64,000 nucleotides of DNA from assembly GCF_014779555.2 (NCBI RefSeq), contig NZ_CP094357.1:3100001-3164000 (forward strand). The letters run 5' to 3'. The stretch is from Lysobacter capsici. Lineage in GTDB: Bacteria > Pseudomonadota > Gammaproteobacteria > Xanthomonadales > Xanthomonadaceae. The number at the start of each line of letters is the position of its first letter. Positions within the stretch are counted from its first letter, which is position 1. Below the pieces are notes generated by a model that was not told the origin of the DNA, made no database searches, and saw nothing but the letters and a program-made list of their open reading frames with translations. This document shows positions 33,237 to 46,089 of this stretch, piece by piece. The position numbers were made by a program, and so were the translations under genes.

Positions 33237-34886
33237 TTACTGCGACTGCAACTCGGCGATCGCGGCCGGGATTTGCACCAGTCCCCAGCCGGTGTTGTTG
33301 TCGCGGCCGGCCGCGTCGATGTCGAGCGCGGAGGTTTCCAGCGCCTCGAGCACCTGCTGCGCGGTCGCGGTCGGCTTGCTGCTCCACACCACCGCGGCCG
33401 CGCCGGCCACGTGCGGGGTCGCCATCGAGGTGCCGCTCTTGTTCTCGTAGGCCACGTTGCTGAGCGACGGGGTGGCGTCGACGGTGGCGGTCTGCCCGGC
33501 CAGGCTGGCGATGATGGTTTCGCCGTCGGCCTTGCTGATGCCGACCGCCGGCAAGGTGCTGGTCACCGGCTGCGGCGGCGTGGCGGTGTTGAAGAACGCG
33601 GCCGACAAGGGGCCGTCGACGTTGTTGTAGACGACCATGGCCAGGCCGCCGCCGGTTTTGACCCGGGTGACCTTGTCGTTGAAGGTGTTGGTGCCGCGCT
33701 GGCACAGCACGACCTTGTTGCGCCAGGTCGACGAAGAGGCCGTGCACAAGCCGCCGTTGACCCAGCCGGCGCTGGCGGTGGTCTGCCTGGAACCGGCGAT
33801 CGGATTGGCCGCGAACTGGCTGTTGCCGATAACCAGCGGATCGTTGGCCAGCGGCGTGGTGCTCAAGGTGTCCACGCCCGGGCCGGCCAGTTCGACCTCG
33901 GCGTTGAACTGCGAGAAGCTGGCCTTGACGTTGTTCTGGTCGACCGCGGCCACCGACACCACGCTCGGGTAGGAGGCCGGATAGCTCAGGGTCGCGTTGC
34001 CGTCGTTGCCGGCCGCGGCGATGCTCAGCACGCCGTTGTTGGCCAGGGTCTGGAACGCGTTGCGTTCGGTGGTGGAGCTGTTGGCGCCGCCCAGGCTCAT
34101 GTTGATGACCTTGGCGCCGGCGCTGGCGCATCGCTGCGCCGCGTCGACCAGGGTCGAGCTGTAGGTCCACGAGCACTGGCCGTGGCCGCTGCCGTTGTAG
34201 CCGTTGCTGCCGAAGATCTTGATGATGTGCAGCGAGACCTTGCCCGGGCTGACGCCGACCACGCCGGTGGCGTTGTTGGCCGCGGCGATGGTGCCGGCGA
34301 CATGGGTGCCGTGGCTGCAGGTGTCGGTGTTCCAGCCGGTCGGGTAGCCGGTCAGGGCGACGCCGGCGAAATCCTCGTGGGTGGAATTAATGCCCGAGTC
34401 GATCACGCAGACCTTGATGCCGGCGCCGGTCGCCGCGCCCGCGTCGATCGTGCCGTCGCGGTTGGCGTCCCACGCGTCGCGCGCCTGGACCTGGTCGATG
34501 CCGTAGGGAACGCTCTGCGCCATCGGGTAGCGCGGGTAGTCGATCTCGACCGACTCGACGTCTGGATTGGCGCGCAAGGCCTTGATCGCGTCGGCCGACG
34601 GCAGGGTCAGCACCGCGGCATTGAGCTTGTCGAACTGGAAGTTCACCGTCGCATCGCCGGCCTTCGAGGCGGCCAGCTTGTTGCGCAGCGCGCTCACCCG
34701 CTGCTGCAGGCTGAGCGGAATGGCGCTCGCGCTCTTGCCCAGGGCGCCGGCGGCGGTGTTGTTGTTCTGCTTGAACTTGACCCACACGCGGTTCGGATTG
34801 GGCTGTTCCTGCGCCATCGACGTCGCGGACGACACCATCGCGGCCAGACCCAGGCCCAGCGCGCATACCAACTTGCTCTGCTTCAT
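33237..34886 (-). CDS. secreted subtilisin-like serine protease (S8) with PA insert
   Basis: A 549-residue precursor. A signal peptide (to about residue 25, SMAQ) and an I9-type propeptide (about 28-120) precede the catalytic domain. Triad residues are Asp163 (VIDSGIN), His192 (SHGTHVAGT) and Ser487 (GTSMATPH). A protease-associated domain is inserted between the His and Ser regions at about residues 345-455 (VVLCQRGTNTFNDKV, AMVVYNN). The ATG follows CAGGGGGATCG. It probably acts as an extracellular protease in prey or host degradation, together with the lysyl endopeptidase. There is no C-terminal P-domain, in contrast to several other Lysobacter proteases. Confidence 0.93.
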   Translation of the reverse strand: MKQSKLVCALGLGLAAMVSSATSMAQEQPNPNRVWVKFKQNNNTAAGALGKSASAIPLSLQQRVSALRNKLAASKAGDATVNFQFDKLNAAVLTLPSADAIKALRANPDVESVEIDYPRYPMAQSVPYGIDQVQARDAWDANRDGTIDAGAATGAGIKVCVIDSGINSTHEDFAGVALTGYPTGWNTDTCSHGTHVAGTIAAANNATGVVGVSPGKVSLHIIKIFGSNGYNGSGHGQCSWTYSSTLVDAAQRCASAGAKVINMSLGGANSSTTERNAFQTLANNGVLSIAAAGNDGNATLSYPASYPSVVSVAAVDQNNVKASFSQFNAEVELAGPGVDTLSTTPLANDPLVIGNSQFAANPIAGSRQTTASAGWVNGGLCTASSSTWRNKVVLCQRGTNTFNDKVTRVKTGGGLAMVVYNNVDGPLSAAFFNTATPPQPVTSTLPAVGISKADGETIIASLAGQTATVDATPSLSNVAYENKSGTSMATPHVAGAAAVVWSSKPTATAQQVLEALETSALDIDAAGRDNNTGWGLVQIPAAIAELQSQ

Positions 34887-35144
34887 CGATCCCCCTGCTT
34901 GCAACCATGGGCCTGACTCCGGGCGGAGCGGCCGCCGGCGCGCATTGCGCGCCCGACATGGGTGCAAACGGGTCGACGGTTGAGCACCCCTACCCAGAAA
35001 TCGGATTTTCAGACCAATCCGAGCACCACGAGGCACAAAAGACGGACCTGATGCACAGAACGTGCATGCATCGCAGGTATCGAGTGCGCCCTGCCCGCCG
35101 CAGACCGGACACGGGTCCGGCGACGGCGGACCAAACCGGCAGGC

Positions 35145-36290: not shown

Positions 36291-36420
36291 CGGGATTGGG
36301 GATTCGAGATTTGGGATTCGGCAAAGCGGTTCGTGGCCGATCCCAAATCCTGCGCCCCAAAAGAAATCGGGACTGGCTTTCGCCAATCCCGAATCTCGAA
36401 TCTCGAATCCCGAATCCCAG
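36291..36420. repeat. inverted repeat of GGGATTCGGGATT type
   Basis: The left part (36291-36321) carries GGGATTGGGGATTCGAGATTTGGGATTCGG. This exceeds one unit; its complement appears at 36382-36420 as CCAATCCCGAATCTCGAATC and further units. The element ends four bases before the stop codon of the glycine-zipper gene. It is a variant of the family at 31535 and 63908. Confidence 0.7.
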
Positions 36421-36423
36421 CTT

Positions 36424-36762
36424 TTAATCGCAACGACGCTCGATCACGGTCTCGGTCTTGTTCTGCTGGTTTTCCTGGATCTTGCGTCCGGCGAACGCAC
36501 CGCCGACCGCGCCGGCCGCGGTGGCCAGCTTCTTGCCATTGCCGCCGCCGACCTGATTGCCCAGCAGACCACCCGCGACCGCGCCGATCGCGGTGCCGGC
36601 TATCTTGTGCTGGTCCTTGATCTGCTTGGGACGCTGCACTTGCACGTCGTAGCAACGCGGCGTCTTCGACTTGGAAGACTTGCTCTGCGCGGTCGCGGCG
36701 CCGGTCACCATGACGCAGGACATCAGCGCGGCGGCGATCACGGATTTGAAATGGGTGTTCAT
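36424..36762 (-). CDS. exported glycine-zipper 2TM protein
   Basis: A 112-residue envelope protein with a signal peptide (to about residue 26, GAATAQ) and a glycine-zipper segment (HKIAGTAIGAVAGGLLGNQVGG) typical of the Rick_17kDa/SlyB-like 2TM domain. It has no lipobox cysteine, so it is probably periplasmic or membrane-inserted without lipid. The basic start of the mature part (SKSSKSK) and a C-terminal Cys are notable. Its precise role is unknown; relatives affect envelope integrity. Confidence 0.82.
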   Translation of the reverse strand: MNTHFKSVIAAALMSCVMVTGAATAQSKSSKSKTPRCYDVQVQRPKQIKDQHKIAGTAIGAVAGGLLGNQVGGGNGKKLATAAGAVGGAFAGRKIQENQQNKTETVIERRCD

Positions 36763-37382
36763 GGACTCACCGATTGGGTTATGGGCAACGGTCACCATGC
36801 GCCGCGGCTTGTCATGAGAACGTCAAACCCCATTCGGGCGCCGCGGGCACTGCCGAGCGATCAGGCTAGTCCGCGACAGCTGAACGGGCGCATGCCCGCG
36901 CCCGCGGCCGCGAAACCGGCGAGGCGGAGCGTGCGCGGCGTCAAGGATCGCGGGGTTGCCGGCCATGCAGTGGGATGCGGTCGCGATGGCCAGCGCGAGG
37001 CGGCAAGCGAATTGCGCGACACCTGCGTACGACGCACCTTTGTGATTGATCGGCGTTGCATGGCGACCCAGACGACGTCATCGCGCCGCGATGGCCGTCG
37101 GTACCGCGGCGGTCTTCCGCGCAAAGGAACTTCAATCCGAGCGTTCTTGTTCAGTGCTGGCCAACCTGCATCTCCCGAGCGAGAGCCTCGCGCTGACGCC
37201 GCTCGCACCAGCGACCTCGTGGCGTCTTCCACTGCTCCATCGGCGACGTGGTCCACCTCGCCCATGCACACAAGCATCGCGCTTCGAACGCAGTCCGCAT
37301 TCTGCGCAATCGGTCGCTCACATCCGTGCATGCGCACCCGCATTATGGACAGCCCGATAACGGCCAGCTCGATGGAGCCATC
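36763..37382. other. intergenic region upstream of the flavoprotein gene
   Basis: 620 bases between divergent genes. Translations in all frames are low-complexity and lack motifs. It should contain the promoters of both the glycine-zipper gene and the flavoprotein gene. No peptide gene with a good ribosome site was found here. Confidence 0.4.
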
Positions 37383-38837
37383 ATGCCGACCTATGACGTC
37401 GTAGTAGCAGGCAACGGAGTGCTCGGCATGGCGACCGCGCGCGCCTTGCAATTGCGCGATCCGCGGTTGCGGGTGGCGGTGATCGGCCCTGCCGCGCGCG
37501 GCGGCGCGGCCTCGGCGGCGGCCGGCGCGATGATGGGCTGCTACGGCGAAGTCACCGCGCAACTGCTGCGCACCGATTCGGGCCGGGCCAAGCTGGCCAA
37601 AGGCAAGCTCGCCGCGCGGCATTGGCCGGCCTGGCTCGAGGGCATCAACGCCGAACTGGCGCAGGCCGATCGGGTGTCGATGACGCCGGGCACGGTGGTT
37701 TTCAGCAACGCCAAGTCCGGCACGATCGAAGACGAAAACTACGCCGCCATCCAGCAGGCCCTGCGCGAAAGCGGCGAGGCCTGCGAAGAACTCGATCCCA
37801 ACCGCATACCCGGCCTGAACCCGGCGGAGGATTGCCGTCCCTCGCGCGCCTTGTTCCTGCCCGGCGAAGGCTCGATCGATGCGGCCCGGCTGTTGCAGGC
37901 GATGACCACGCTGATCGAACGCTCGGCGACCCTGAGTTTCGTCGACGCCACGGTGAAGGCGCTCGACATCCAGGGCGGGCAGATCAAGGGCGTGCGGCTT
38001 CAGGACGACAGCGTGGTGTCGTCCCCGCAGGTGGTGCTCGCGGCCGGCGTGTGGACGCAGACGATTCTCGATGCGCACCCCGATCTGGCGCGGCGCATTC
38101 CGCGCCTGTTCTCCGGCGGCGGCACCTCGCTGGTGCTGGAAACCGCGGCGGCGACCTCGCAGCAGCATGTGCTGCGCACGCCCAACCGCGCCTTCGCCTG
38201 CGGGCTGCACGCGGTGCCGCGCGGCGGCCGTCAGCTCTACATCGGCGCGACCAATACCTTGTTCGCGCAACCGATGCTGCGCACCTCGCCCGCGGACATG
38301 TTCTTCCTGCTCGAATGCGCCCTGGATCAGCTCGATCAGGATCTGTGCGCGGCGCAGCTGGTGACCTGGCAAGCGGGCAATCGGCCGGTCGCGGTCGACA
38401 CCTGCCCGCTGATCGGCCCGACCTCGGTCGACGGCCTGTGGCTGCTTACCGGCACCTACCGCGACGGCTTGTTTCTGTCGCCGTTGCTCGCCCAGCACAT
38501 GGCCGACCGCGTCTGCGGCGGTGCCGGGCTGTTCGAGGAAAGCTTCCGCCCCGAGCGCAAGCCGATCCGCCTGTACACCCAGGCGCAGGCCCGCGCCGAA
38601 GCGCTCAAGCACTATCTGGCGATGGGCTCGGAACACGGCATCCGCCTGCCCCGGGTCGGCTGGCATCGGGCCTTCCCGCGCTTCTACGAGCAGATGCTCA
38701 ATGGCCTGTACGACGAACTGGGCGAGGACGAATACGTATTGCCGCCGGAGCTGCTGGCGATCGTCGCCAGCGATCGCGCGAGGATGGTTCCGTTCTTCCG
38801 CGACTACTACGCGCAGGTTCGTCAGGCCTGGGCCTGA
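37383..38837 (+). CDS. FAD-dependent oxidoreductase converging on the RiPP-like operon
   Basis: A 484-residue flavoprotein of the DAO/glycine-oxidase fold. The FAD motif is VVVAGNGVLGMATARAL at residues 5-21, with N in place of the usual middle Gly. PVAVDTCPLIGP and LLTGTYRDGLFLSPLLA form the C-terminal FAD site. A 90-residue tail after the usual end is unusual. Its stop is 10 bases from the stop of the methyltransferase on the other strand, so the genes converge with no terminator between. It may oxidise an amine or peptide residue in the RiPP pathway, or be unrelated; the sequence alone does not decide. Confidence 0.82.
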   Translation: MPTYDVVVAGNGVLGMATARALQLRDPRLRVAVIGPAARGGAASAAAGAMMGCYGEVTAQLLRTDSGRAKLAKGKLAARHWPAWLEGINAELAQADRVSMTPGTVVFSNAKSGTIEDENYAAIQQALRESGEACEELDPNRIPGLNPAEDCRPSRALFLPGEGSIDAARLLQAMTTLIERSATLSFVDATVKALDIQGGQIKGVRLQDDSVVSSPQVVLAAGVWTQTILDAHPDLARRIPRLFSGGGTSLVLETAAATSQQHVLRTPNRAFACGLHAVPRGGRQLYIGATNTLFAQPMLRTSPADMFFLLECALDQLDQDLCAAQLVTWQAGNRPVAVDTCPLIGPTSVDGLWLLTGTYRDGLFLSPLLAQHMADRVCGGAGLFEESFRPERKPIRLYTQAQARAEALKHYLAMGSEHGIRLPRVGWHRAFPRFYEQMLNGLYDELGEDEYVLPPELLAIVASDRARMVPFFRDYYAQVRQAWA

Positions 38838-38847
38838 AGGCGCGCGG

Positions 38848-39693
38848 TCATTGCGCCGGTGAATCGGCCGGAGCGTAACCCGGCCGATGGAACCACGCGG
38901 CGAAGCTGTTTTTCCATTCGCGGAAATACGCGCTGTCGAACTCGGGCGCGATCGTCGCCGAGCGCTTGTCCACGGCCAGCTTGTGCGTATAGCCCAGCGT
39001 CGCCATCGCCTGTTCGATCAGCCGGTCGCCGAGCACCAGCGAGAAGCCGCAGTCGGGGCGTTGGTTGTAGCGGTAATTGCAGCTGTTGATCATGTGCGGC
39101 ACCACCACCCGCAACTCGTCGACGCCATGGTTCAAGGTATCGATCAGGATCCGTTGCGGCGCCAGATACGCCATCGCCTCGAGCAACACGAACGGATGCG
39201 CGGAGTGATACAGCACGCCCGCGCAGACCACCACCTCGAAGCGGTTCGGCTCGAACCGCCACAGTTCGTGATGCATATCGCCTTCGATGACCGTCAGCCG
39301 ATCGCCGAACCGATCGCGCAGATGGGCGACGCAACGCGGGTTATTTTCGATGGCCGTGACCGACGCGGCGTGGCCGATGATCGATTCGGTCAGACCGCCG
39401 GTGTGCGCGCCGAGTTCGAGCACCGATTTGCCGCGCAACCATGCCGCGCAATCGTCGATCAGATGCCGGCGCCTCACCGGCGTCGCATGGGCGTGATCGG
39501 ACTGCTCCAGCACGATCGCAAACCGCGAATGCCACTGCGCGGCCGAAGCGCTGCCGTCGCTGTCGGACTCGCCGTCGAGCCAGGCGTAGTCGATCGTTTC
39601 GGCCGAGCATCGCAATACGACGACGGCCTTGTCGCGGTCGTTCAGGGGGCGCCATATCTCGCCCACGGTCGGCGGAGCACTCAACTCGCCCAT
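38848..39693 (-). CDS. class I SAM-dependent methyltransferase, RiPP cluster
   Basis: A 281-residue protein with a Rossmann methyltransferase core: motif I VLELGAHTGGLT, acidic end of strand 2 in AIENNP, IEGDMHHELW, and motif IV-like VVVCAGVLYHSAHP. An N-terminal region of about 85 residues precedes the core. The ATG at 39693 has GGAAGG touching it, so spacing is poor; a GTG further up (39795) would overlap the peptide gene and is less likely. It is the last gene of the operon and lies 56 bases after the peptide gene, which suggests it methylates that peptide. The target residue is unknown. Confidence 0.8.
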   Translation of the reverse strand: MGELSAPPTVGEIWRPLNDRDKAVVVLRCSAETIDYAWLDGESDSDGSASAAQWHSRFAIVLEQSDHAHATPVRRRHLIDDCAAWLRGKSVLELGAHTGGLTESIIGHAASVTAIENNPRCVAHLRDRFGDRLTVIEGDMHHELWRFEPNRFEVVVCAGVLYHSAHPFVLLEAMAYLAPQRILIDTLNHGVDELRVVVPHMINSCNYRYNQRPDCGFSLVLGDRLIEQAMATLGYTHKLAVDKRSATIAPEFDSAYFREWKNSFAAWFHRPGYAPADSPAQ

Positions 39694-39749
39694 CCTTCCA
39701 GTCCAAGAAACCTGCCGCACCCGTTGCGAGCGCGGCAGATCCCCGTTAC

Positions 39750-39902
39750 CTAGGAATTCGCCGCCTGGGTCGGCGCAACGCTGTACGGCGGCCACCAGCG
39801 ACGTTCATCGGCGGAGCCGGTGGTCACTTCCGATTCTTCCAGAGTCTTCTTGTTGCTCAGGAGGCTCTTGAGCGTCTCCAGGCAAGTTGATTCATTGTTC
39901 AT
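39750..39902 (-). CDS. putative RiPP precursor peptide (50 aa)
   Basis: A 50-residue peptide, too short for routine gene calling. Its ATG is preceded by AGAGGAG with 7-base spacing, one of the best ribosome sites in the window. The N-terminal part is a plausible helical leader (MNNESTCLETLKSLLSNKK), followed by an acidic/Thr stretch (TLEESEVTTGSADE) and a distinct tail, RRWWPPYSVAPTQAANS, which is a likely core. It lies between the PqqD-like gene and the methyltransferase gene on the same strand, where RiPP precursors often sit. There is no Gly-Gly site; the Asp-Glu before RRWWPPY may be a target or cleavage region. The function is inferred from context; it matches no family I can name. Confidence 0.68.
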   Translation of the reverse strand: MNNESTCLETLKSLLSNKKTLEESEVTTGSADERRWWPPYSVAPTQAANS

Positions 39903-40011
39903 GAACTATCTCCTCTGTGGTGGAAGTACTGCTTGCTTTGCTACGGTCGCGACATCCGTGTCGGCTGACTCCCCTGCTCCATAACTGTCCTGTTTCAAGA
40001 CGACTCGTCCG

Positions 40012-40299
40012 TCACGCGGGCGCGGCTTCGATCAGCCGGCTGCCCAACAGCGATTCGAGTCCGCGCTGCGCCTGCCGCCGCGCGCCGTCTTCGTTCAACT
40101 TGTCGCCGGCGAGTTCGGCATAGCCGCGCTCCACTTGCTCGACCGTGCGGCCGTCGCACAGCTCGAACACCAGCCAGGTGTTGAGGCCGAGCCAGTGGAT
40201 CTTTCCCGACTGCGGCGAGAACACCATCAGGCAATCGGCCTGCGGCACCGGGCGCGAACGCAATCCGCTCGCCTTGCGTACCGTCAATTCGTCGCGCAT
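40012..40299 (-). CDS. free-standing PqqD-like domain (RiPP recognition element)
   Basis: A 95-residue protein with the PqqD-like pattern: beta-hairpin start (QADCLMVFSPQSGKIHWL), then the helix LNTWLVFELCDGRTVEQVERGYAEL. PqqD-like domains bind leader peptides and hand them to modifying enzymes. The C-terminal part of the first gene of this operon repeats the same signature (LNTAAWLMFELCDGR), showing two recognition modules in one locus. The start (MRDELTVRK) overlaps the upstream HExxH gene by 16 bases. It is followed after 109 bases by the peptide gene. Confidence 0.85.
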   Translation of the reverse strand: MRDELTVRKASGLRSRPVPQADCLMVFSPQSGKIHWLGLNTWLVFELCDGRTVEQVERGYAELAGDKLNEDGARRQAQRGLESLLGSRLIEAAPA

Positions 40300-41447
40300 A
40301 AGGCCTCCGGCGCTTCGCTGAACACCGCCTCGTCGACCGGGTCGAGCGAGCTCCTGAGCCAATCCACGAAGTCGATCCCGCCGGCCGACAGCAACGGCGA
40401 CCATTGGGTCTGCAGCATGTGGCCCAGATAGCGGGCGCGGTCGATGGAGCGGCCGTACTGCGCGGCGGTGTCGTTGTTGACCACCGACATGGCATGCGGC
40501 CGGATCACGTACGCCGACGGGTCGCCGAACAGTTCGAAGCTGCGCTTGTCCGCGCACAGCGCCGCGGCCTTGAACAAGGAAAGATGCACGTACACGTGAT
40601 AGGCGAAGATCGCCCGCACGATCGACCAGCGCACGTTGCGCCACGGCACCTGGATGGTTTCGTCCGGCGCCTTCGCCAGCGAAACCGAACGCGCCGCGTC
40701 GAACAGCTTCATGTGCAGGCCCTCGTGCAGCAGGCAGCCGGCGATGTCCCACGGGTTGCCGAGTTGCTCGAGCGAAATGAACACGGTCGACGGGGTCAGG
40801 TCGCCGCCTGCGGCGGACAGCACGATGCCGCCCTCGAGCTGCGCATCCAGCAGCGCGATCGCGCCGACGTGGCGCAACGCCGCGGTGCCCGAGTTCGGCA
40901 ACAGCATCGACAACAGCGCGATCGCATCCTGCACCTTGGTTTGCGCGGCGGCATCGGGATTGAGCAAGGTGCCGCGGTTGGCCGGGCTGGCCGAGAAAAT
41001 GCCGTCGAACGCGGTCTGCAATTGCGCCGCATACGGATCGGAGCTGCCGGCGATCGCCCACATCCAGTGGCGCTCGTCCGAACTCAGGTCCCAGCGCGCC
41101 AGCATATGCGACTGGCACAGGCCCGACGGCAATGCGGCGATCGCCTTCGGCAACAGGTCTTCGAGCCGGTGCGGCGATGCCAGCTGCCCGGTTTCCAGTT
41201 CTGTGAATGCATCTTCTGTCGCCAGACGAACCAGCGGATCGAAGAAGATGCGCCGCACGTCGGCATCGGGCATCGTGTCCAGACGCTCCAGCGCCGCGGC
41301 GACCCCGGGCAAACGATCGGCGAACAATTCCGCTCCGAACCGATAGCGCGCATACACCTTGGCCAGAATCCGGTTCGAATCGCCGAAGTTCGGATGCTCG
41401 GACAGGATGCGGTCGGCGGTGGCGACGACCTTCGCGGTCGTGCTCAT
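40284..41447 (-). CDS. HExxH-motif putative peptide-modifying enzyme (387 aa)
   Basis: A 387-residue protein with HEGLH (His241, Glu242, His245) and, further on, FAYHVYVHL and RPHAMSVVN. All three segments are conserved in the paralogue upstream (HEAVH, FAFHAYVHL, RPHAMSVVN), so a metal site is likely. HExxH domains of this kind are found in RiPP clusters, and at least some studied members, fused to radical SAM enzymes, are 2-oxoglutarate-dependent beta-hydroxylases rather than peptidases. The ATG overlaps the preceding stop by four bases. Hydroxylation of the peptide is inference; the family resemblance is seen. Confidence 0.78.
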   Translation of the reverse strand: MSTTAKVVATADRILSEHPNFGDSNRILAKVYARYRFGAELFADRLPGVAAALERLDTMPDADVRRIFFDPLVRLATEDAFTELETGQLASPHRLEDLLPKAIAALPSGLCQSHMLARWDLSSDERHWMWAIAGSSDPYAAQLQTAFDGIFSASPANRGTLLNPDAAAQTKVQDAIALLSMLLPNSGTAALRHVGAIALLDAQLEGGIVLSAAGGDLTPSTVFISLEQLGNPWDIAGCLLHEGLHMKLFDAARSVSLAKAPDETIQVPWRNVRWSIVRAIFAYHVYVHLSLFKAAALCADKRSFELFGDPSAYVIRPHAMSVVNNDTAAQYGRSIDRARYLGHMLQTQWSPLLSAGGIDFVDWLRSSLDPVDEAVFSEAPEALCATN

Positions 41448-42949
41448 GCCGCCCTGCCTTCGCGGGCGGCCGCCGCGTCGTCGATCGGTACGATCATGCC
41501 GCTGGCGACAAGATGCCCGAGCATCGGCTCGACCTTCTGCCAGGCGCGGTCCTCGGCGACGCCGGTGATCTGCGCATAGGCCTGGGCCAGGTCGCGCTCG
41601 TTGCGACCGTCGCACAACTCGAACATCAGCCACGCGGCGGTGTTGAGCTTGCGGATCTGCGGCTGTTCGATCGCGGATGCGAACAGGATGCCGTGCTCTT
41701 TCAGCGGGCGCAGGTGCAGCTTGGGATTCTTCGCGTAACGCGTGGTCGGTGCCGGCGCGGTCGCGGTCTGCGCCTCGTCTGCCGTCGCCTGCGCGTTGTC
41801 GAGACGTTCAATGCGCATGTCGACCATCGGACTGATCGCTTCGCACAGCCAATCGACCATGCGGCGCGCGGCCGGGGTCAGGTACGAAGCCCAGGTCGTT
41901 CTGAACTGCTCGCCCAGATAGATCATGCGCTGATGACCGCGCGAGAACGGCGTGGTCGCGGCGGTATTGACCACCGACATCGCATGCGGACGCGTGTTAG
42001 CCAGATACGACTCCGGCGCGCCGTAGACCGCGTAGTGCTGCGGCCCCAGTTGTTCGACCGCGGTGCGGAACACCTGCAGATGCACATAGGCGTGAAACGC
42101 GAACAGGCAATTCGACACCGAGATTTCCCGGCCCCACGGCAAGGTCACCATGGCTTCGTCGACGACCGCCGCGCTGGTGCGCACCATGTCCGACAACTTC
42201 AGATGCACGGCTTCGTGCATGATGTGAACGGCCGTGTCCCAGGGATTGGCCAGTTCCTCCGGCGCGATGAAGATCATGCACGGCGTGGAATCACCGCCGG
42301 ACGCGGTGAGCATCGGCCCGCGCTCGTTGCGCATGTGCGCGATCGCGACCGAGTGCAGATGCGAAAACACGCTGTGCGCGACCTGCGGCACCAGCGCCTG
42401 CAGCAAGGTGCAGGCGCGATCGAGTTGCGCCACCATCTCCGGCGTTGGCCGGATAATCTGCGCCTCGCAGTGGCCGCCGGGCATGAACCCCAGTCGCAGC
42501 GCTTCGCGCAGCGCATCGGCCACCGGTTCGGATCCATCGGGAAGATCCCAGACCCAGATCCGCCGGCCGTCGATCTGAGGTCCCACCTGAAAATCGCGCT
42601 CCATCGCAGCAGCGGACATGCTTTTGCTCTCGCCGGCGATGGCCAGGCTGCGCTCCAGGCACCAGACCAGCCGTTGCGTGTCCTGAGCAGCCGACGCATC
42701 GGTTTCCAGGCGTTCGATGGCCGCTTCGAGTTCGGCCCGGACCAACAGATCGCCGAGGATCTTGTTGGCGAGCGCCTCGTCCAGCCGCTCCACCGCCGGC
42801 AGCAAGGCCTGCAGCTTCGCGTCGTTCTGCGCGAGCACGGCCAGGGCGAATTTATAGCGCTCGATATTGAGCGCGATGATCTGTCGTGAATTTCCGAATT
42901 CTTCGTGAGCCTGCAGATTGGCGTCGACTTGCTCGATCAGATCTTTCAT
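41444..42949 (-). CDS. HExxH-motif protein fused to C-terminal PqqD-like domain (501 aa)
   Basis: First gene of the operon. Residues about 20-400 are homologous to the next protein: GGDSTPCMIFIAPEELANPWD, then HEAVH (His245, Glu246, His249), FAFHAYVHLQVF and RPHAMSVVN. After an Ala/Thr-rich linker (about residues 385-405), residues about 410-490 form a PqqD-like module (QIRKLNTAAWLMFELCDGR). Thus one polypeptide carries both leader recognition and the putative catalytic domain, while its paralogue relies on a separate PqqD protein. The start is preceded by AGGGTCTTGAG. No signal peptide is present, so it acts in the cytoplasm. Confidence 0.8.
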   Translation of the reverse strand: MKDLIEQVDANLQAHEEFGNSRQIIALNIERYKFALAVLAQNDAKLQALLPAVERLDEALANKILGDLLVRAELEAAIERLETDASAAQDTQRLVWCLERSLAIAGESKSMSAAAMERDFQVGPQIDGRRIWVWDLPDGSEPVADALREALRLGFMPGGHCEAQIIRPTPEMVAQLDRACTLLQALVPQVAHSVFSHLHSVAIAHMRNERGPMLTASGGDSTPCMIFIAPEELANPWDTAVHIMHEAVHLKLSDMVRTSAAVVDEAMVTLPWGREISVSNCLFAFHAYVHLQVFRTAVEQLGPQHYAVYGAPESYLANTRPHAMSVVNTAATTPFSRGHQRMIYLGEQFRTTWASYLTPAARRMVDWLCEAISPMVDMRIERLDNAQATADEAQTATAPAPTTRYAKNPKLHLRPLKEHGILFASAIEQPQIRKLNTAAWLMFELCDGRNERDLAQAYAQITGVAEDRAWQKVEPMLGHLVASGMIVPIDDAAAAREGRAA

Positions 42950-43412
42950 CTCAAGACCCTGTCCTTGCGCATCCAGCGTTCGAGTCGGAATGGCGCGCGC
43001 GACGACGGATGCCGATGGATCGCTGCGCGGCCTTCATCTACTTGCAACGCTTATAACAAGAAGGCGTCACGCGCATAGGCGACGCCGATCGCAAAGCGAA
43101 CAGGTGGTGCATCGCATCGTCGCAATGCGATGACCGATAGGTAGCCATGCGCGCGATTCATCGAAAAAACGCGATGCAACGCGCAAAATCACATAGTGAC
43201 GCACGCGTTAAGCGGGTGTTCGGATGATCGGACTTGAAGGCGCGGGCGAGTGCCGGTGGCAATGCAATCGCCATGCTCGATGAAACGTAGCGGACTTATA
43301 TCGGCGATGTGTGCCGGGAAAATCGTCGCCCGTACATCTCCTCGGACGCGCGTAAGCCCATGTGCGGGACACGACATCGCACATCCACATCGACAAGACC
43401 GAAAGAAGCTCG
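42950..43412 (-). promoter_or_regulatory. upstream region of the RiPP-like operon, with inverted repeat
   Basis: 463 bases, visibly richer in A and T than neighbouring DNA. At 43110-43132 CATCGCAT and ATGCGATG form a perfect 8-base inverted repeat with a 7-base spacer, about 160 bases before the operon start; it could be an operator. TTATAA on the minus strand (43051-43056) is a possible -10 box without a clear -35. A 78-codon frame on the minus strand here lacks a ribosome site and motifs. Confidence 0.35.
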
Positions 43413-44081
43413 CTACTCGAAGCAATACTCGAAATTCTGCCGATCCATCGGCAGCGCATTGAACTTCTTCACGAACGACTCCGGCTTGCGCACGAATCCC
43501 TCGAAACGCGCCTGACCACTGGAAACCGCATAGGCCAGGGCGTCGTAAAAACTATCGTCGCCGCCGAGAAACAACTGTCGCCGCGCGGCTTTTTCCGCCT
43601 TCTCCACGGCGCGTTGCAGTTCGCGCCGCATGCGCGCGGCCGTGCGCAGCAGCCGGCTCAGATCCTGCTGGCGATAGCATTCGCGCAAGACCGATCGGGC
43701 CGTATCGGCATAGCCGTCGTCCTGGGCGAATTTCGGCCAGTTCAGCGCCGCGACCACCGCCCAGAAATCCTTGGGATCGGTCTTTTGCAGACGCGACAGC
43801 AGCGTTTTCGCCCGCGGATGCGAGTGCGCCGAAGCGTCCGTCAGCGGACTGCTTTTCTTGAGCAGGCCGAGCACCTCCTGCTCGGACAGCGAAAACACCA
43901 TGCGCGGGCCCAACTCGCGCACGATCAGGCGATAAACGCCTTTCTTCGATCCGGCCTGGCGCAGGCCGAAGATCCGGCCCTTGATCAGAGACTCGGTCCG
44001 GCCACGCGCGTTCTCCAGGCGGTAAACCGCCTTGGCGTTGTAGACGCGCCATTCGTAAGCGGCATTTTCGACGATCGTCAT
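43413..44081 (-). CDS. protein of unknown function (222 aa)
   Basis: A 222-residue soluble protein that I do not recognise. The N-terminal half is alpha/beta (YEWRVYNAKAVYRLENARG, FGLRQAGSKKGVYRLIVRELG); the middle has DFWAVVAALNWPKFAQDDGYADT; the C-terminal half is helical and basic (AARMRRELQRAVEKAEKAARR). The chosen start (MTIVENAAYEW) begins the well-behaved sequence. It lies 463 bases upstream of the RiPP-like operon on the same strand but appears independent. Confidence 0.75.
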   Translation of the reverse strand: MTIVENAAYEWRVYNAKAVYRLENARGRTESLIKGRIFGLRQAGSKKGVYRLIVRELGPRMVFSLSEQEVLGLLKKSSPLTDASAHSHPRAKTLLSRLQKTDPKDFWAVVAALNWPKFAQDDGYADTARSVLRECYRQQDLSRLLRTAARMRRELQRAVEKAEKAARRQLFLGGDDSFYDALAYAVSSGQARFEGFVRKPESFVKKFNALPMDRQNFEYCFE

Positions 44082-44289
44082 GCGGTCAGCACCCGCGGCG
44101 GCCCGATCCTGGGCACGCGCCGAATGATCCACGTTTCTGCGCTCAGCGCCAATCCCGGCCGCGACGCGGCCGGAGACTCAGCCGCGGCAGCGCTTTGCGA
44201 TAAAGTCGGCGCGAGCCGCGCCCGCGTCTCATCCGAACCTGTCTGCCTCAACGCGCCAGCGCATCGACGCATCGCGGCCCGGCCATCGC

Positions 44290-44533
44290 CTAGTGCTGCT
44301 TACGAGCGGGACGCCGGCCGCCTTGCGTTGCGGTCTTTCGCTCAGGCTCTGCGCGCTGCTCGACGACATCGGGCTGGATCATGCGCAGGTCGATAACGCA
44401 CTCCGGACCGTATACCTGGACGAAAGCAGCCACGTGATCCGCAATCCGGCGTCGGCCGTGCCCCCTGGCGGTGCTGTGCCACCACGGCGATCGCGGCGTC
44501 CATGCCGCCGAACATTTGCGTCGCCTGGGCCAT
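44290..44533 (-). pseudogene. possible frameshifted small gene
   Basis: Reading from an ATG at 44533 gives MAQATQMFGGMDAAIAVVAQHRQG. In another frame the continuation is a protein-like sequence, ADHVAAFVQVYGPECVIDLR, that goes on through MIQPDVVEQRAEPERK to a stop at 44290. The two halves join if one G is removed from a five-G run near 44464. The joined product would have about 80 residues. No ribosome site is clear and I do not recognise the family. It is either a decayed gene, a sequencing error in the G-run, or chance. The rest of the gap 44082-44673 shows nothing. Confidence 0.35.
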
Positions 44534-44673
44534 CGGGATGTGTACTAATCGAAGGCGGCATCGAGGCCTGAGCCAATCTTGTCGACCCCTCGATTCCGCA
44601 CTATTGAAGCCACACCCTGCCCGCCCGCGAACCGCGGCACACGCTTGTGCGCGCGGTTCGGACCAGCCCGACG

Positions 44674-46089
44674 CTATTCGAAACTGCCGATCGAATCGTG
44701 GGCCAGATTGTCGAAGCGGGTGTATTCGCCGAAGAACTTGAGCTTGAGCGAACCGGTCGGGCCGGAACGCTGCTTGCCGATGATGACCTCGGCCAGACCT
44801 TTGTCGGGCGAAGTTTCCTTGTTGTAGTAATCGTCGCGGTAAATGAACACGATCACGTCGGCGTCCTGCTCGATGGCGCCCGACTCGCGCAAGTCGGCCA
44901 TCACCGGGCGTTTGTCGGCGCGCTGTTCCAGCGAGCGGTTGAGCTGCGACAGCGCGATCACCGGCAGGTTGAGTTCCTTGGCCAGATGCTTGAGCGAGCG
45001 CGAGATCTCGGAGATTTCGGTCGCGCGGTTTTCGTTGTTGCCCGGCACCGACATCAGCTGCAGGTAGTCGATCACGATCAGGCCTAGGTCGTGCTCGCGC
45101 TTGAGCCGGCGCGACTTGGCGCGCAGCACTTCCGGCGACAGGCCCGGGGTGTCGTCGATGAAGATCTTGGCTTCGCGCAGCTGACGGATCGCGCCGGTGA
45201 CGCGGCTCCAGTCCTCGTCCTCGAGCTGGCCCGAGCGCAAGCGCTGCGCGTTGACCCGGCCGACCGAGGAAATCAGACGCAGCGCGAGCTGGCTGGCCGA
45301 CATTTCCATCGAGAACACCGCGACCGCTTTCTTGGTGCGGAACGCGGCATGCTCGGCGATGTTCAAGGCGAACGCGGTCTTGCCCATCGCCGGACGCGCG
45401 GCCAGGATCAGCAGGTCGGTGTTCTGCAGACCGGCGGTCATCTCGTCGAATTCGGTGTAGCCGGTCGGGATGCCGGTGACCGAGCCGCCGTTGGCGTAAC
45501 GCGTCTGCAGCACGTCGAAGGCTTCCGACAGCGCCTTGGTGACCGGGGTGAAGTCGGTGCGTCCGCGCGAGCCGGCTTCGGCGATCGCGAACACCTGCTG
45601 CTCGGCCTTGGCCAGGATCTCGCCGCTGTCGCGACCATCGGGTTGGAAACCGTCGTTGACGATCTCGGTGCCGACCTCGATCAGCTTGCGCATCACCGCC
45701 TTGTCGCGAACGATCTCGGCGTAGGCGGTGATGTTGGCCGCCGACGGCGTGGTGCTGGCCAGTTCGATCAGATAAGCGCCGCCGGCGACTTCTTCGACCA
45801 GGCCCTGCGATTCGAACCACTCGCCCAGGGTCACCGCGTCGAACGGCCGGCTCTTTTCCGCCAGTTCGCGGATCGCGCGGTAGATCAGCTGGTGATCGCG
45901 GCGATAGAAGTCTTCCTCGACGATCTGGTCGGCGACGCGGTCATAGGCGTCGGGCGCGAGCATCAGGCCGCCGAGCACGGCCTGCTCGGCCTCGATCGAC
46001 TGCGGCGGCACGCGCAACTGGTCGATGCGCTGCTCGGCACGGGTCTCGAAACGTTTTTCGCCGCGGAATCCGCCGGCACGTGCGCTCAT
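44674..46089 (-). CDS. dnaB: replicative DNA helicase DnaB
   Basis: The hexameric helicase that unwinds DNA at the replication fork. The 471-residue protein has an N-terminal primase/loader-binding domain (QSIEAEQAVLGGLML) and a RecA-like C-terminal domain with Walker A ARPAMGKTAFAL (Lys237), VIDYLQLM (Walker B), SRSLKHLAKEL and the ADVIVFIYRDDYYN segment. No intein is present. The start (MSARAGGFRG) follows GAGGAGCGCCTCCACG. It lies downstream of rplI, the usual gammaproteobacterial order, but a terminator and a separate upstream region (46090-46441) suggest its own promoter. Confidence 0.96.
   Translation of the reverse strand: MSARAGGFRGEKRFETRAEQRIDQLRVPPQSIEAEQAVLGGLMLAPDAYDRVADQIVEEDFYRRDHQLIYRAIRELAEKSRPFDAVTLGEWFESQGLVEEVAGGAYLIELASTTPSAANITAYAEIVRDKAVMRKLIEVGTEIVNDGFQPDGRDSGEILAKAEQQVFAIAEAGSRGRTDFTPVTKALSEAFDVLQTRYANGGSVTGIPTGYTEFDEMTAGLQNTDLLILAARPAMGKTAFALNIAEHAAFRTKKAVAVFSMEMSASQLALRLISSVGRVNAQRLRSGQLEDEDWSRVTGAIRQLREAKIFIDDTPGLSPEVLRAKSRRLKREHDLGLIVIDYLQLMSVPGNNENRATEISEISRSLKHLAKELNLPVIALSQLNRSLEQRADKRPVMADLRESGAIEQDADVIVFIYRDDYYNKETSPDKGLAEVIIGKQRSGPTGSLKLKFFGEYTRFDNLAHDSIGSFE

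Follow-up and report, generated by a model that had tools for sequence, protein, structure and literature searches.

A candidate RiPP cluster of Lysobacter with paired HExxH proteins, a conserved ERRWWPPY peptide and a relative of N-formimidoyl synthases

Introduction

What do six adjoining genes of Lysobacter capsici make together? The genes occupy positions 37383-42949 of a 64,000-nucleotide stretch (hereafter the window; 3100001-3164000 of a single-contig genome of 6.24 Mb) and form one conserved block, with five genes on the minus strand and a flavoprotein gene on the plus strand. An original prediction, made from the sequence alone, took them for a new cluster for a ribosomally synthesized and post-translationally modified peptide (RiPP), in which two HExxH proteins hydroxylate a short peptide and a methyltransferase caps it. 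Very probably, some soil Lysobacter carry in this block a six-gene set that makes a chemically modified small peptide. Our preferred reading, to which we give a probability of about 0.6, is more specific: a ribosomal peptide would be recruited by RiPP recognition elements (RREs), receive hydroxyl and methyl groups, and carry at a free amine a cap derived from glycine. Observed for this are the gene identities, their conservation and linkage, a predicted RRE fold and the catalytic residues, each of which is described below.

Results

A conserved peptide gene beside modifying enzymes

Seven of the 20 Lysobacter genomes compared (18 within a 297-genome draw from the family, plus G297 and G298) have the block between dnaB and alr, and in the other 13 that site is without it. 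Gene order and orientation are identical in all six other cluster genomes, G297 included. The putative precursor peptide has 50 residues (39750-39902, minus strand). Its gene is separated by 109 bases from the PqqD-like gene and has a ribosome-binding site of its own, GAGGAG (39910-39915, minus strand), of which AGGAG is kept in all six genomes aligned. The peptides of the seven clusters are 48-50 residues long and share an invariant SEVTTGSADERRWWPPY, beyond which the tail is variable; the conserved C-terminal half reads SADERRWWPPY[SN]V. A conserved block of 29 codons offers approximately 19.5 synonymous and 67.5 non-synonymous sites. Over these codons, 8-11 synonymous and 2-3 non-synonymous changes separate the window from the four genomes in the other clade. 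Synonymous changes thus prevail although non-synonymous sites outnumber synonymous sites 3.4 to 1: the peptide is under purifying selection. The exact ERRWWPPY coding pattern occurs in six of the 297 family genomes, which are the six with the HExxH pair in that draw; of the two genomes outside the draw, G297 has both the pattern and the pair and G298 has neither. Genome-wide it was found in none of the 13 cluster-less genomes. A conserved short precursor gene thus stands beside its predicted modifying enzymes, as is expected of a RiPP cluster.

The two HExxH proteins, here called HX1 (501 aa; 41444-42949) and HX2 (387 aa; 40284-41447), are encoded on the minus strand by genes that overlap by 4 bases, and are 31% identical to each other. 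They score 61.0 and 61.7 bits, respectively, against TIGR04267, the family of alpha-ketoglutarate (aKG)-HExxH-type peptide beta-hydroxylases, which has a curated cut-off of 40 bits. The motifs HEAVH (HX1 residues 245-249) and HEGLH (HX2 residues 241-245) are invariant in the six genomes aligned. The four best PDB matches of the HX1 structural model are all to the HExxH domain of ChlB (8s5f, E 2e-6 to 3e-5; TM score 0.45 by query and 0.64 by target), followed by SjiH (22ob, E 3e-3). Sequence profiles searched against PDB sequences gave nothing meaningful for HX1 and only ChlH, at E 0.035, for HX2. By family score, and for HX1 also by model fold, the assignment of both as predicted aKG-HExxH-type peptide hydroxylases is well supported.

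HX1 ends in a PqqD/RRE domain that scores 24.8 bits against PF05402, just above the cut-off of 23.4 bits. HX2 is without such a part, and its gene overlaps by 16 bases with that of a stand-alone PqqD-like protein (95 aa; 40012-40299, minus strand). The latter has no Pfam or NCBIfam match and is recognized by its likeness to HX1 C-termini, with 32% identity (E 8e-11) in the window and 33-39% to those of five other genomes, together with its model fold. The model (mean predicted local distance difference test score, pLDDT, 92.7) finds as best PDB match the complex of TbiB1 with a lasso peptide leader (5v1v, E 1.4e-4; also 5v1u), and next PqqD (5sxy, E 1.1e-3) and a sactipeptide enzyme. The protein is a predicted RRE, its best structural matches being RREs with bound leaders.

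The genes, the two overlaps, HEAVH and HEGLH, and the short peptide with its strong ribosome site all stood on re-reading the sequence as the original prediction had given them. A signature LNT..WL.FELCDGR, said to occur twice, held in part: WL.FELCDGR is in register in both PqqD copies, and LNT occurs in both but out of register. The family scores, the RRE fold and the conserved peptide lend good support to the core proposal of RRE-guided HExxH hydroxylases in a RiPP cluster. The conservation of the peptide next to homologous HExxH genes, on which it depended, was found in all seven Lysobacter clusters, and a motif-sharing open reading frame (ORF) stands beside Streptomyces relatives (see below).

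The remaining minus-strand gene (38848-39693) encodes an S-adenosylmethionine (SAM)-dependent methyltransferase of 281 aa, present in all seven clusters. It is a generic class I enzyme (PF13649, 39.3 bits; PF08241, 32.3 bits), and a search of plasmids for it gave no match at 1e-12.

Gain and loss of the block

Each of the seven cluster genomes has an ortholog of the flavoprotein, 79.5-100% identical over 477 residues or more. Genome-wide, none was found in the 13 others, five of which show weak distant matches (best E 2.7e-8) and eight none at E 0.001. The HExxH genes are present in the same seven and were found nowhere in the genomes of the 13, in which the methyltransferase and stand-alone PqqD genes, looked for only in the dnaB-alr stretch, were likewise absent. 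That interval, read in all 20 genomes, measures 7.7-9.1 kb in the positives and 1.7-7.7 kb in the negatives. In a dnaB plus alr tree the positives form two groups, of three and four genomes, that stand apart from each other. The negative G241, with an interval of 1.7 kb, is nested in the second group (node support 94; its exact place within it is unresolved, 38). Parsimony needs three changes. Flavoprotein, peptide and hydroxylases are all in seven of the 20 genomes, in two clades, and all absent from 13; the block has thus been gained or lost as a unit about three times.

A flavoprotein related to N-formimidoyl synthases

The flavin adenine dinucleotide (FAD) enzyme (484 aa; 37383-38837, plus strand) carries in Pfam and NCBIfam only a DAO/ThiO-like label. 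The original prediction listed it rightly as a flavoprotein, and missed what is the most unusual part of the block, its kinship with N-formimidoyl and N-iminoacetyl synthases. A comparison with PDB sequences ranks entries for N-formimidoyl fortimicin A synthase first (7xqa, 8gri and others; E 7e-98 to 7e-96, with the best over residues 4-483); glycine oxidase comes next at E 1e-14, a difference on which we rejected ThiO/glycine oxidase as its identity. We take these entries to be Orf1 of BD-12 biosynthesis, because the chain has the segment AFAC(281)GLHLVPR named in PMC10156733 and one entry has alanine at the position of the E312A mutant. Alignment with Orf1 gives 192 identical residues out of 475 (40%), at full length and including the extra C-terminal domain.

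According to the excerpts of PMC10156733 used here, Orf1 oxidizes glycine at the FAD, holds the glycine imine on C281 as an N-O-S (NOS) adduct and passes it to an amine, which then bears an N-formimidoyl or N-iminoacetyl group. Mutants of C281 and E426 gave no end product, and with E312A and F316A the N-iminoacetyl product became the major one on glycylthricin, E312 favouring decarboxylation. In the Lysobacter flavoprotein the glycine and FAD residues A54, G55, A56, M57, H284, Y294, R342 and R368 (Orf1 numbering) are identical at eight out of eight positions. C281, the NOS cysteine, corresponds to C273, and E426 to E417; T298, N299 and F316 are also kept, all of this in seven of seven genomes. 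As a control, four ordinary DAO relatives (one from the window's genome, two from G190 and one from G293) lack C281, H284, Y294 and E426 and keep R342. Four relatives on plasmids, from Agrobacterium, S. finlayi, S. avidinii and P. cerasi, keep C281, H284, Y294 and R368; E426 is kept in three and is D in the fourth, F316 is lost in two, and E312 is not E in any.

A search at E 1e-20 of 398 genomes, with at most four candidates scored in each, recovered the flavoprotein in its own genome only. On plasmids, relatives with C281, H284, Y294 and E426 kept were observed in Agrobacterium (L062:8983-10473) and S. finlayi (L063:9968-11425, with a nonribosomal peptide synthetase (NRPS) gene nearby). That of Pseudomonas cerasi (L065:7779-9230), with C281 kept, E426 = D and F316 = G, directly follows a gene for a 2-oxoglutarate/iron oxygenase, and nine other Pseudomonas plasmids also carry a relative. 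The Agrobacterium and S. finlayi genes appear to belong to biosynthetic gene sets of other kinds; the N-formimidoyl-synthase family seems to reach beyond aminoglycosides.

Relatives of the HExxH proteins outside Lysobacter

An HX2-profile search of 397 other Pseudomonadota genomes, of limited sensitivity with at most four candidates scored per genome, found none; TIGR04267 matches occur in 10 of 369 Gammaproteobacteria, the own genome counted. The HX1 profile matched nothing among viral contigs, and the window's peptide nothing among plasmids. Close HX2 relatives were found in the records of Lysobacter sp. Root690 and L. enzymogenes ATCC 29487. The closest ones found outside Lysobacter are HX-PqqD fusions on Streptomyces plasmids, with 29.5-31.4% identity to HX2 (93-94% coverage) and 28-29% to HX1. 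In Streptomyces sp. Mg1 and S. globosus the fusion gene lies between an ORF of 45 residues and a class I lanthipeptide cluster of the FDLD family.

The 45-residue ORF, annotated as hypothetical, stands just upstream of the fusion on both plasmids read (L056:7703-7840 and L057:7710-7847). It ends in RDAAEERAWVPAYWA.PAAA and has the motif [DE]ER.W.P.Y common to the Lysobacter peptides. Ungapped BLOSUM62 scores against these peptides are 46-49, reached by 5, 13, 14 and 12 of 20000 shuffles for four pairs; as the ORF was one of a few short ORFs considered in four loci, these figures are not corrected probabilities and are suggestive to good. Residues 1-32 of the ORF match on eight Streptomyces plasmids, seven at 100% and one at 81%. 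Perhaps the ORF is a second RiPP precursor in its locus.

Two further plasmid loci were noted. On pADI95-16a (L061:6001-6548) the 45-residue ORF is followed by an ORF of 109 residues, and only HX residues 25-64 were matched on the plasmid, which looks like a decayed copy. A plasmid of S. xanthophaeus (L059:5734-8545) has an HExxH-family match of weak identity after a His-rich ORF of 67 residues and a divergent methyltransferase, and is of a different precursor type.

Proposed pathway and its alternatives

The substrates, the order of steps, the site of capping, the product and its role are proposed as follows. A peptide of approximately 50 residues would leave the ribosome and be held at its N-terminal half by the two RRE modules, the one fused to HX1 and the free one, which probably serves HX2. 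As Fe(II)/2-oxoglutarate HExxH enzymes, HX1 and HX2 would hydroxylate residues in the SADERRWWPPY[SN]V half, likeliest Pro, Asp or Asn by precedent; excerpts of PMC12636437 and PMC13060819 describe HExxH hydroxylation of Gln, Asp, His and Pro. The methyltransferase would add a methyl group to the peptide, and a protease encoded outside the block would free an amine. The flavoprotein would oxidize free glycine at the FAD, hold it on its cysteine and pass it to the freed peptide amine, giving an N-formimidoyl (+27 Da) or N-iminoacetyl (+71 Da) cap, as Orf1 does on glycinothricin-type amines. From SEVTTG onward the peptide has no lysine, which points to the new N-terminus as the acceptor; its other amines are its own N-terminus and the leader lysines.

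Several observations weigh against this pathway. The flavoprotein gene is on the opposite strand and outside the operon, convergent with the methyltransferase gene with their stop codons 10 bases apart. Pfam and NCBIfam scans found no leader protease or exporter among the six genes, and, lysine being absent from that part of the peptide, an amine there arises only after cleavage. Confidence in the HX1 model is modest (pLDDT 64.8, predicted TM score 0.54). No Orf1-type flavoprotein adjoins the peptide in the Streptomyces loci; an FAD oxidoreductase lies 6.5 kb off in L057 and was not compared. The linkage of the genes rests on about three events and not on 20 independent ones, and dnaB and alr, from which the tree was made, flank the block and may have travelled with it. 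Finally, E312 and E313 of Orf1 are A (A304, in seven of seven genomes) and D in the flavoprotein, and the residues R306, T423, E434, M438 and F470 of the acceptor pocket differ, so that acceptor and outcome may differ from those of Orf1.

In the same pocket F279, S310 and W435 are kept, L124 is I and T466 falls in an alignment gap. With the catalytic residues kept, the pocket changed and C281, H284, Y294 and E426 lacking in the ordinary DAO controls, the flavoprotein looks like a synthase-type enzyme with an acceptor of its own. As E312 is replaced in the four plasmid relatives too, it is perhaps not family-defining, and for the same reason A304 at its place hints only weakly at N-iminoacetyl over N-formimidoyl as the cap.

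The flavoprotein could also be a plain amine or amino-acid oxidase within a RiPP cluster, acting for instance on the N-terminal residue after leader removal. Its DAO/ThiO-like label and the loss of E312 and of most of the aminoglycoside pocket would agree with this. We consider it unlikely, though a contender, given that the enzyme is far closer to Orf1 than to glycine oxidase and that such an oxidase has no evident use for the NOS cysteine, E426, F316 and the additional C-terminal domain, all of which are retained.

A somewhat smaller chance is given to a locus shared by two separate modules, in which flavoprotein and methyltransferase build or alter a small amine of their own and the peptide is only hydroxylated. 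The convergent gene outside the operon, the Streptomyces HX-PqqD and peptide pair with no flavoprotein nearby, and the surroundings of the flavoprotein's plasmid relatives, with an NRPS gene nearby or other sets of genes, all fit this picture. Against it, the block holds no gene for a small-molecule scaffold, and flavoprotein and peptide are together in seven of 20 genomes and both absent from the other 13.

HExxH is also the motif of zincins, so that HX1 and HX2 might be metallopeptidases that cut the peptide. A hydrolytic activity is on record for PflC, which in the excerpt of PMC12636437 hydrolyses a truncated leaderless peptide. Since both proteins score above the cut-off of the aKG-HExxH family and the HX1 model matches an aKG-HExxH domain, we regard cleavage in place of hydroxylation as improbable.

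In scaffold-peptide pathways a small molecule is assembled on a carrier peptide and then released, with peptide aminoacyl-tRNA ligases as the hallmark enzymes. That the peptide is such a carrier for a non-peptide product would suit the lack of an exporter or leader protease and the several tailoring enzymes for one short peptide, and is the least probable explanation, as these ligases are not among the Pfam and NCBIfam families listed for the block proteins and the C-terminus of the peptide varies while its ERRWWPPY block is fixed.

Discussion

Relation to known systems

The nearest described systems each share a part of the block. The pfl and pos clusters of Pseudomonas (PflC, PosC; PMC12636437, in excerpt as for all papers cited in this section) have an aKG-HExxH enzyme that acts on a ribosomal peptide, and no protease gene in the cluster. 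They differ in a multinuclear non-heme iron-dependent oxidative enzyme (MNIO)-nitroreductase partner, a nitrile-hydratase-like leader and a poly-Gln plus ARMD core, whereas the Lysobacter block has two HExxH enzymes, PqqD domains, a methyltransferase, an N-formimidoyl-synthase-like flavoprotein and an ERRWWPPY core. Nitrilobacillin (pes) and biphenomycin (bip/bpm) likewise include one aKG-HExxH tailoring step, PesO performing C3-hydroxylation of Pro (PMC13060819, PMC12707348, PMC12257519). Their other enzymes are an MNIO with an asparagine-synthetase-like enzyme, or an MNIO with a B12 radical SAM enzyme and an arginase; in the parts compared there is no set like that of Lysobacter. No MNIO or radical SAM family is listed by Pfam or NCBIfam for the six block proteins. 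ChlB-type proteins (8s5f), the best matches of the HX1 model, fuse radical SAM and aKG-HExxH domains; HX1 has no radical SAM domain and is fused to an RRE instead.

Orf1 shares with the flavoprotein, besides the 40% full-length identity, the glycine site, NOS cysteine, E426, F316 and C-terminal domain. The known acceptors of Orf1 and of Fsm14 (fortimicin/dactimicin) are streptothricin- and fortimicin-type amines (PMC10156733), whereas the Lysobacter gene is linked to a ribosomal peptide. The Streptomyces loci L056 and L057 share an HX-PqqD fusion with a [DE]ER.W.P.Y peptide, and differ in their single HExxH gene, the lack of such an adjoining flavoprotein and the class I lanthipeptide cluster with sulfotransferase alongside.

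The original prediction saw novelty in the absence of a radical SAM enzyme, a lanthipeptide synthetase and a YcaO protein. This ground is insufficient, since HExxH clusters of that kind have already been published (pfl/pos, nitrilobacillin). In open-access literature, a search joining formimidoyl and RiPP found no relevant paper, one joining HExxH and PqqD found no paper on this system, and this cluster is not described among the matches listed; in a mixed search PMC10156733 was the only match listed for formimidoyl or iminoacetyl. As far as these searches go, two things are new: HExxH enzymes in a tandem, RRE-fused pair, and the association of this pair with an N-formimidoyl-synthase relative. 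There is about an even chance that the block represents a RiPP class in which an enzyme of that synthase family caps an amine of a ribosomal peptide with a group derived from glycine, following RRE-guided HExxH hydroxylation of an ERRWWPPY core; NOS-bridge chemistry would then act for the first time on a ribosomal peptide in place of an aminoglycoside-type antibiotic.

Such a glycine-derived cap, if confirmed, would be an unusual peptide modification and a new RiPP modification class, one that furnishes ribosomal peptides with an amidine cap. The glycine-derived change lets aminoglycosides escape modifying enzymes (PMC10156733); a peptide that carries it could be shielded from aminopeptidases. 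The aKG-HExxH enzymes are a young RiPP family, and the members described in the excerpted papers have MNIO or radical SAM enzymes as partners; a tandem, RRE-fused pair free of both would be a simpler system for studying residue choice. As the hosts include L. enzymogenes, which is used for biocontrol (PMC9410377), the product may matter in antagonism.

Neighbouring genes

Other memberships and roles were considered and rejected. PADLOC gave a single match, of mads_2 to the methyltransferase, and none for the other five proteins, so a set of defence genes was dismissed. The S8 protease gene (33237-35036) and alr are not regarded as cluster members, since an S8 gene lies beside alr, within 1.5 kb, in 12 of the 13 cluster-less genomes; for the thirteenth (L066) alr alone is shown, with no S8 protease gene. 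A DUF4240 gene (43413-44132) upstream of HX1 recurs in only two of the six other cluster genomes, G090 and G297, both in the window's clade. Across the 20 Lysobacter genomes the alr-dnaB interval itself (36387-44676 in the window) ranges from 1.7 to 9.1 kb and is thus a site at which accessory genes vary.

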